Positions 1 through 1,826 of a stretch of DNA of 6,820 nucleotides are shown here, piece by piece (position 1 is the first letter of the stretch; each line of letters begins with the position of its first letter). The notes under the pieces are model-generated. The model had not been told where the DNA came from. It ran no database searches and worked only from the letters and a program-made list of their open reading frames with translations. The translations under genes were made by a program, and so were the position numbers. Source of the stretch: an uncultured delta proteobacterium (GTDB taxonomy: Bacteria > RBG-13-61-14 > DRUE01); NCBI GenBank assembly GCA_903930515.1, contig CAIYYW010000220.1, positions 1 through 6,820 of the forward strand, given 5' to 3'.

Positions 1-471
1 CAGGATCTCGTAAACAACGCCCCATCCCGGCCGCAAATTACCGTAGCCGGACAGGCCATTGGCCTGGACCGTCACTGAATCTCCCGAATCCACGGTCAAG
101 GCGTAAAATTCCGCATCCAAGGAAATGGGATCGCCGGACAGGTCGCTGAAATCTCCGGTCAACCAGGATTGGAGAGTGCTGTAGTCCGGGCCATCTAAAA
201 ACCCGTTTCCATCCAGGTCCTGCCAGAGGGTGGTCCGGGAACGAAGCCCGCCCGGAGCCTGGTTGTCCGTAACAAGCCAGTATCCCGGGTCCTGGAAGGC
301 CAGTCCCAATTCCATCGCGCCCATATCCGGGCCGTCAATCAGGGCGTTGTCCGCGTCTCCCCAGAAATTAGCGCCCGGCAGATGTTGCTGAGCGTTGGCT
401 GAAAACGGCAGGATAAAAATTGCGGTTAAGCAAAAAAAACCGATCCCCCAAATCCGTCCAAACTTTTCCAT
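1..471 (-). CDS. Secreted protein with two dockerin/EF-hand-like calcium loops (N-terminal part)
   Basis: This gene is open from an ATG at 471 to the left window edge, giving 157 codons without a stop; the C-terminus lies outside. Residues 1-27 form a clear signal peptide: a short charged start (MEKFGR), a hydrophobic core over about residues 8-23, and an A-N-A cleavage motif at 25-27 followed by QQ, so the protein is exported. Two related segments follow, WGDADNALIDGPD (37-49) and WQDLDGNGFLDGPD (83-96). The second contains a textbook 12-residue EF-hand/dockerin loop (D85, D87, N89, D93, D96); the first is the same pattern one residue shorter. Residues 118-157 look like the start of a beta-rich domain (ALTVDSGDSVTVQA). 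The ATG at 471 is preferred because AAAGGGG lies 8 bases upstream; the in-frame ATG at 477 would leave only 2. In known families such loops bind calcium, and true dockerins dock enzymes onto cohesins. Whether this protein docks anything cannot be told. The product is otherwise unrecognised. Confidence 0.82.
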   Translation of the reverse strand, partial: MEKFGRIWGIGFFCLTAIFILPFSANAQQHLPGANFWGDADNALIDGPDMGAMELGLAFQDPGYWLVTDNQAPGGLRSRTTLWQDLDGNGFLDGPDYSTLQSWLTGDFSDLSGDPISLDAEFYALTVDSGDSVTVQANGLSGYGNLRPGWGVVYEIL

Positions 472-479
472 TATCATAT

Positions 480-486
480 CCCCTTT
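480..486 (-). promoter_or_regulatory. Ribosome binding site of the secreted-protein gene
   Basis: On the minus strand AAAGGGG lies 8 bases before the ATG at 471. It decides between that start and an in-frame ATG two codons earlier (477), for which the spacing would be too short. Confidence 0.7.
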
Positions 487-605
487 GACTCCTTTGGCTT
501 TTTTGACTGAATCCGCCAAGCCATAAATAAATCAGGGTCTCAAGCTCTTAATCAGGATACCGCAGCTAATCTATAATTTTAAACGAAATAAGAGAAAAGA
601 GCAAT

Positions 606-641: not shown

Positions 642-661
642 TTAACAGGCTGTTGAAAAAG
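642..661 (+). repeat. Left terminal inverted repeat of the MITE-like element
   Basis: Twenty bases, TTAACAGGCTGTTGAAAAAG, pair with 829-848 with a single mismatch (C versus G at the ninth position). Similarity stops abruptly on both sides, which marks the element boundary. Confidence 0.75.
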
Positions 662-828
662 AGCTCCCTCCCCCTGGGAGGGGGGAGGGTCGGGGAGAGG
701 GTCGCCTCAAATTTACTCATAGCCAAAGCCCACAAAGCCTTGCGAAATAAGGACCAAATCACCCTCTCCTTGTTCCTCTCCCATCAAGGTAGAAGAGACG
801 ATTTTTCGCGATTATTGCTTAAAAAAGA

Positions 829-848
829 CTTTTTCAACACCCTGTTAA
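829..848 (-). repeat. Right terminal inverted repeat of the MITE-like element
   Basis: CTTTTTCAACACCCTGTTAA is the inverted partner of 642-661, 19 of 20 bases matching. The distance between the outer ends is 207 bp. Confidence 0.75.
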
Positions 849-941: not shown

Positions 942-1826
942 TTATCCTTCATCCTTACTTTTGAGCAAATCCTCCTTGCTAAACCTGGTCCCATCCGGCC
1001 TGGTCCAGTGGGTGATCCCGGAAAAAAATCCGATTTTGGAATAAAAATACGATTGTCCTTCCAAGGTCACCTTGCCCGCGAAATAATCCTCCACGAACTT
1101 ATTCATCCGCCTCATCTCGGTTTCCAGCTTCTGCCGGTATTGCTCCATCTGCTCCATCGTCGCGTCGGCCGGGACATAAATCCGCTCGTTGCTCCCGATC
1201 CCGGCGATGGTGTTAAAGGGCCAGACCATCACGAACCGGTCCCAGCTCTTGAAGCGATATACCTTTTTCGCGTAATAGCTTATTGATACAATCGGCAGCC
1301 CGGTCTCCTTGGCCAGCTTGATCACGCCCGGCTTGACCACCTCTTTCGGCCCAAGCGGCCCGTCCGGGGTGATCACCAAGGCAAACCCCTCGGTGCGTTG
1401 AGCCTTGAGCATCTCCTCCAGAGCCTCTTTGCCGCCCCGGGTGCTGGACCCCAGTGCGCATTCAAACCCGAACAATTTCAGGATCCGCGACATCAACTGC
1501 CCATCTATGCTCCGGCTCACCATCCCAATCACCTTCTTGCCCCCCTCAATCTGGTAAACGAAGGGCATCATCAGCGAGCGGTTATGCCAGACCGCCGCGA
1601 TATAAGGCTGGCCCTGGTGGAACATCCTGAGATGCTGCTCGTTGTTGATCACGACCCATCTGCTGGTCCTCCCCACAAACTGCGTATAAAGCCACATCAG
1701 GACCGGCGCGAGATTGAGCAACAGCCAGTTCCGAACCCGCTTCTTCAATGGTTTCTTTTTTGCCGGCTCCTCAATCATCACTTTGTATTTATAGCCGACT
1801 TTTACCGTTTGTCCATACCTATTCAA
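942..1826 (-). CDS. DUF374-type lysophospholipid acyltransferase
   Basis: The 294-residue product belongs to the DUF374 branch of the lysophospholipid acyltransferase (LPLAT) superfamily, whose members transfer acyl groups to lipid acceptors at the inner membrane. Visible signatures are the WHNRSLMMP block (80-88, with H81 in the catalytic-histidine position; the classical HX4D aspartate is absent, as is usual in this branch), SRSIDG (104-109), GSSTRGG (126-132), ITPDGPLGP (152-160) and KPG (165-167). Residues 35-51 form one hydrophobic segment behind a basic patch (KKKPLKKR), typical of a membrane anchor. About 45 residues after the core (250-294, with GITHWTRPDG) are not part of the usual domain. 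The start is uncertain: TTG at 1826 is the longest option, while GTG 1781 or ATG 1778 would begin at or near MIEEPAKKK and fit family length; none has a clear ribosome binding site. Substrate is unknown; modification of lipid A or another envelope lipid is plausible. The gene is divergent from smc. Confidence 0.88.
   Translation of the reverse strand: MNRYGQTVKVGYKYKVMIEEPAKKKPLKKRVRNWLLLNLAPVLMWLYTQFVGRTSRWVVINNEQHLRMFHQGQPYIAAVWHNRSLMMPFVYQIEGGKKVIGMVSRSIDGQLMSRILKLFGFECALGSSTRGGKEALEEMLKAQRTEGFALVITPDGPLGPKEVVKPGVIKLAKETGLPIVSISYYAKKVYRFKSWDRFVMVWPFNTIAGIGSNERIYVPADATMEQMEQYRQKLETEMRRMNKFVEDYFAGKVTLEGQSYFYSKIGFFSGITHWTRPDGTRFSKEDLLKSKDEG

Follow-up and report, generated by a model that had tools for sequence, protein, structure and literature searches.

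The window, a stretch of 6,820 nucleotides from an uncultured delta proteobacterium, contains a gene-free segment between two inverted repeats, which raises the question of what this segment is, what moves it, and what its interior represents. We conclude that positions 646-844 are very probably a MITE that is moved in trans by an IS5-family DDE transposase and has a gene-less hairpin core of nuclease type. The MITE itself is ordinary, and the unusual part is its core. The features were assigned as follows.

1-519, minus strand: ORF of 173 aa that flanks the MITE on its other side and runs off the contig; no Pfam match
642-645: left target-site duplication, TTAA (YTAR type); TTAA/TTAA here
646-844: MITE, 199 bp, non-autonomous, with IS5-type ends; near-full copies in its own genome, with homology stopping at the ends
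646-661, plus strand: left terminal inverted repeat (TIR), CAGGCTGTTGAAAAAG; from the alignment of copies, with the same end on the complete ISs L105 and L132
664-702, plus strand: left hairpin unit, CTCCCTCCCCCTGGGAGGGGGGAGGG plus TCGGGGAGAGGGT; can be aligned with the upstream unit of the DUF559 gene on contig C38 and folds as a hairpin
703-755: 53-bp spacer between the hairpin units, the place of the nuclease gene in DUF559 units
756-797, minus strand: right hairpin unit, inverted, CTCTTCTACCTTGATGGGAGAGGAACAAGGAGAGGGTGATTT on the minus strand; 33/38 bases shared with the downstream unit of the C38 DUF559 gene
829-844, minus strand: right TIR, CAGGGTGTTGAAAAAG on the minus strand; from the inverted-repeat comparison and the alignment of copies
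845-848: right target-site duplication, TTAA; TTAA/TTAA here
942-1826, minus strand: neighbouring DUF374 acyltransferase-like gene; Pfam PF04028, E 1e-20

Ends, interior and copies of the MITE

The first-pass annotation had described 20-bp ends matching at 19 positions with no gene between them, and both points held. Positions 642-661 and 829-848 are complementary at 19/20 positions with 167 nt between them, and when the window was randomised 200 times under a Markov-1 (dinucleotide-based) model, no inverted repeat of this quality arose within 400 bp, while a looser 15/16 criterion was reached in 5 of 60 randomisations. Pfam gave no match for the sole ORF crossing the interior (653-964, 103 aa). 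The inverted repeat was thus retained, but the length given to the TIR was not: the TIR is CAGGSTGTTGAAAAAG, an imperfect repeat of 16 bp with one mismatch (15/16 paired), and the outer TTAA is the target duplication, which, being palindromic, looks as if it belonged to the repeat. The complementary blocks pointed out at 694-702 and 761-769 were recovered within a longer 25-nt arm pair (678-702/761-785), and the interior is as foldable as had been supposed, the MITE strand giving a better fold than any of 200 shuffled versions (z = -4.9). The Rfam scan of positions 500-1000 returned no family, and no similarity to the MITE region was found in phage or plasmid records. The element is intergenic, beyond the 3′ end of the DUF374 gene.

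Positions 636-856 were searched by BLAST against the window's own assembly (G000, 401 contigs), in which the window copy is on contig C220. Near-full copies were found elsewhere on C37 (94%), C97 (93%), C47 (95%), and C270 (85%). The genome has four or five such copies at 85-95% identity, in unrelated places; those on C97 and C47 are each cut within the element by a contig end and could together make up a single copy. After alignment of the copies with their flanks, the homology started at CAGG and stopped at CCTG, and the sequences outside were unrelated. The multiplicity that the first-pass annotation had expected from a BLASTN search was therefore observed, with sharp ends and unrelated flanks in the own genome. 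The same ends also surround unrelated interiors on C111 of the own genome, in the same-genus genome G001, and in many other bacteria. On C111 (L009, 1-131), the TIRs enclose an AT-rich interior of an element of at least 124 bp that is cut by the contig end. As MITE criteria we used TIRs, no transposase gene, a length under about 600 bp, several copies, and target-site duplications; 646-844 has the size, the TIRs, the copies, and the duplications, with no coding match.

The gene order around the DUF374 gene beside the MITE differs in G001, the sole same-genus genome compared, and G001 lacks an ortholog of the phoH-like gene beside the C270 copy, so that gene order there gave no precise empty site for either copy. 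Two tandem DUF374 genes were seen in G001 (contig C40; L140, 1519-3244) versus one in the window.

Target-site duplication and probable IS5-family partners

The outer TTAA is a 4-bp target duplication of the YTAR type, as in IS5-family elements, for which YTAR is the duplication motif (PMC10359306). The duplicated words were TTAA/TTAA in the window, CTAA/CTAA at C37, and CTAG/CTAG at the complete IS L132, and the C270 copy had an imperfect duplication (TTAT/TTAA). Six MITEs of G001 showed TTAA/TTAA twice, CTAA/CTAA twice, one duplication with a mismatch, and one site without duplication. TA was present on both sides in 37 of the 44 collected TIR pairs, and the 4-mers were identical in 26 of these 37 pairs from many genomes, where re-pairing of left and right words would give 18.8 (p 0.0003); since most of the 37 came from a scan demanding TTAA at one end, the weight lies on CTAA/CTAA, CTAG/CTAG, and the six MITEs of G001, all obtained without this demand. 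The target preference proposed earlier (TA or TTAA) was refined to a 4-bp YTAR target, the IS5-family pattern, in place of TA alone.

Complete insertion sequences with the same ends were found in other genomes. A gammaproteobacterial MAG contig carries a 1,348-bp IS (L105, 5061-6408) with the ends of the window MITE, whose 362-aa transposase P0001 scored 278.8 bits (cut-off 140) with the IS5-family model NF033581 and contains the domains DUF772 and DDE_Tnp_1. The 1,340-bp element of genome G058 (L132, 1212-2551) has the same ends, CTAG on both sides, and a transposase 63% identical to P0001. Homologous transposase fragments in G030 and G086 are followed by the same end at a spacing of about 90-130 bp. 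In G001, five fetched contigs (C90, C354, C14, C503, and C202) break 74-143 bp inside an IS-ended element that begins CAGGTTGTTGAAAAAGTC / CAGGTTGTTGAAAAAGTCGAATTG, and all of these except C503 reach an ORF start, MRGKEDRQASMLVLMNP / ATGCGGGGCAAAGAAGACAGGCAG, of the form MRG..(D/E).RQ, as in the L105 transposase. Beyond these first 17-19 residues, no transposase of the P0001 group was found in G001. Near the first base of other G001 contigs there is a TIR match with this end sequence, and since these contigs are known from TIR matches alone, the copy number of the element in G001 (at least five) is a minimum.

The own assembly gave no match to P0001, and its only candidate was a weak 143-aa PF01609 match with none of these ends nearby. 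As the assembly consists of 401 contigs and two contig ends lie inside the MITE, absence of the transposase from it is not proven. An autonomous partner in the same genome is usual for an IS-derived MITE but not obligatory. The full-length IS with similar ends that the first-pass annotation had predicted thus exists in relatives and other phyla, with an intact transposase, but was not found in the own assembly. The description of the segment as a non-autonomous, MITE-like element was upheld by its multiple copies, its TIRs, the lack of a transposase gene, and the matching ISs elsewhere.

Judging from these sequences, an IS5-type transposase is the probable mover of the window MITE. The CAGGSTGTTGAAAAAG ends would be recognised in trans by such a DDE transposase, and insertion at YTAR would duplicate the four bases; the movement is presumably of the cut-and-paste kind. 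The hairpin cargo would most likely have been acquired once, through insertion into IS ends or capture between them, after which the IS5 machinery would amplify the element.

Two other origins were weighed against this one. Several well-known bacterial MITEs belong to the IS630/Tc1-mariner group, with a TA target and a 2-bp TA duplication, and the TA flanks on both sides in 37/44 TIR pairs would suit such an assignment. However, the duplicated word is four bases long and co-varies on both sides (CTAA/CTAA, CTAG/CTAG), and the transposase encoded by the complete elements with such ends is of the IS5 family (DUF772, DDE_Tnp_1), so that membership in this group is very improbable; IS630/mariner was rejected as the driver on duplication length and transposase family. 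In the least probable reading, to which we give hardly any credence, the element is a hairpin with a regulatory or terminator role, or a REP-type repeat that spread without transposition, and its long inverted repeat only mimics a transposon. The MITE does fold well, is intergenic, and has REP-like hairpins inside, but its copies cease to be homologous precisely at CAGG...CCTG, just outside which the 4-bp words match, and the same ends surround unrelated interiors on C111, in G001, and in many bacteria.

The hairpin core and DUF559 genes

The core of the IS5-type MITE consists of GC-rich hairpin units that face each other without a gene between them. BLAST with the core only gave matches on C38 and C356 of the own genome and in genomes of other families. 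The C38 matches are located on both sides of a small gene, DUF559 (PF04480; L147, 780-1237), and the order on the coding strand is a hairpin with GGGGAGAGGGTGATT, the DUF559 gene, and AATCACCCTCCCC with a hairpin. The right core unit agreed with the C38 downstream unit at 33/38 bases, including the loop and a GATTTG tail (blastn E 2e-7), and the left one aligned modestly with the upstream unit (score 21 over 37 columns). The core matches in G003 and G022 directly adjoin DUF559 hits. The DUF559 reading frame on C38 continues into the hairpin unit, with the tail SPSPFSPPIKGGEL.

One stand-alone DUF559 gene was sampled from each of 60 genomes, of which 59 were usable (L172-L231), and each gene received a flank score, for which its 150 bp of upstream DNA were aligned locally with the reverse-complemented 150 bp downstream and the best match was taken. 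In this set of genomes, which covers many families but is non-random and partly related in lineage, a score of at least 14 was reached by 36/59 stand-alone DUF559 genes, compared to 2/91 other ORFs of the same loci (Fisher p 1e-16) and 0/12 weak or multi-domain DUF559 genes. All control positions of the same contig were surpassed by 40/59 of the genes and by 0/12 of the weak or multi-domain loci. In the plasmid collection, the flanking pair was present in Deinococcus aetherius, Sphingomonas parapaucimobilis, and Pseudanabaena, and no pair was found at the DUF559 genes of Enterobacteria (Escherichia coli), Neisseria gonorrhoeae, Azospirillum, Sinorhizobium, and Photobacterium. The S. parapaucimobilis gene (L272), with its flanking inverted repeats, is placed between a GatB/YqeY-domain gene and dnaG.

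The hairpins could instead be generic GC-rich terminators or low-complexity DNA whose likeness to the DUF559 flanks is due to chance, with no relation to the nuclease. The units are purine/pyrimidine-rich and partly self-similar, so any match between them carries less information, and the C38 match of the left unit is modest, as noted. Nevertheless, chance hairpins do not account well for a score of 14 in 36/59 DUF559 genes versus 2/91 other ORFs and 0/12 weak or multi-domain genes, for the 40/59 genes that exceeded every same-contig control, or for the 33 of 38 bases, loop and GATTTG tail included, shared by the right unit and its C38 counterpart. We therefore regard a chance likeness as unlikely and retain the reading of the core as nuclease-type.

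Several DUF559 copies in genome G117 are alike from unit to unit; some pairs (L248/L252) share little beyond the unit, and others share a longer region. Such copies suggest that the hairpin-DUF559-hairpin units are mobile. This 2.6-Mb genome has 11 DUF559 matches (L248-L256), several of them nearly identical from hairpin to hairpin and some within a larger shared repeat. PADLOC gave weak matches of the DUF559 domain alone, inside large defence proteins and one homing endonuclease, and because these were weak we claim no defence system. One Caulobacter DUF559 protein is described as a Vsr-like nuclease (PMC12907096). The link between DUF559 and flanking repeats was not found in the freely accessible papers searched, on DUF559 or on REP, RAYT, and nucleases, and its novelty is accordingly provisional.

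Related repeats and known systems

The six MITEs of G001 (L281, L282, L283, L288, L292, and L295) have the ends of the window MITE around a core of inverted GTCATTCCCG units, with the pair form GTCATTCCCG...CGGGAATCCAG and with GTCATTCCCGGCTTGACCGGGAATCCAG and GTCATTCCCGCGAAAGCGGGAATCCAG facing each other. Both core unit types also flank a GIY-YIG gene at contig C778 of G001 (L301). These core units resemble dRS3-like ATTCCC(N)GGGAAT repeats, which we take to be comparable to Neisseria dRS3, and they belong to a different sequence family from the core of the window MITE. Some stand-alone GIY-YIG genes (L301, L335, L354, L332, and L322) have inverted, well-known intergenic repeats alongside (GTCATTCCCG..., GTCATTGCGAG..., CACCCTGAGCTTGTCGAAGG). 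In the flank test, 13/52 stand-alone GIY-YIG genes beat all controls, as did 2/8 multi-domain genes, so the GIY-YIG-repeat link is true of a subset at most. GIY-YIG as a partner equal to DUF559 was rejected on these counts.

The window MITE shares its ends and the 4-bp YTAR duplication with IS5-family ISs (NCBIfam NF033581, transpos_IS5_4), but these carry a transposase, whereas the MITE has none and its own assembly yielded none. The Chunjie MITE of Geobacter uraniireducens measures 178-235 bp and has conserved TIRs and direct repeats (PMC10969869). Like Chunjie and other bacterial MITEs, the window element is short and intergenic, with TIRs, duplications, several copies, and a variable interior; Chunjie was likened to it by description, not by terminal sequence, and the review text searched does not describe a nuclease-type hairpin pair for Chunjie.

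The core has the layout of REP/RAYT units and REPINs, namely two inverted hairpin units, with a gene (DUF559 on C38) or without one (the MITE). However, RAYT is a tyrosine transposase, whereas the C38 gene encodes a Vsr-like PD-(D/E)XK nuclease domain (DUF559). The single-stranded tail of the window/DUF559 unit is a G-rich tract with GATT and lacks GTAG, the REP tag, and the units are few in the own genome, unlike REP/REPIN.

We consider it about evenly balanced whether stand-alone DUF559 nucleases and some GIY-YIG nucleases with their hairpin pairs are REP-like mobile units without RAYT, with the gene-less doublets as their miniatures and the IS5-type MITEs of this genus carrying such doublets, of DUF559 type in one species and of GIY-YIG type in the other. 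Through the core, a widespread nuclease family of unknown role could be linked, with strong statistical support, to GC-rich intergenic hairpins of many unrelated bacteria. Should the nuclease move or maintain these repeats, the two would form a second REP-like system alongside RAYT/REPIN, which would account for the origin of many such hairpins and of the C-terminal tails that they add to small proteins, such as that on C38.

A DUF559-type hairpin doublet also occurs inside two 159-bp repeats of G002, a genome of the same order (L049 and L058, both 1405-1563), which are 97% identical. Their ends, GTTGCCCAAA...TTTGGGCAAC, are unlike those of the window MITE, and they are possibly a second MITE family. 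Together with the window MITE and the G001 MITEs, the G002 repeats make three groups of small repeats with nuclease-type doublet cores.
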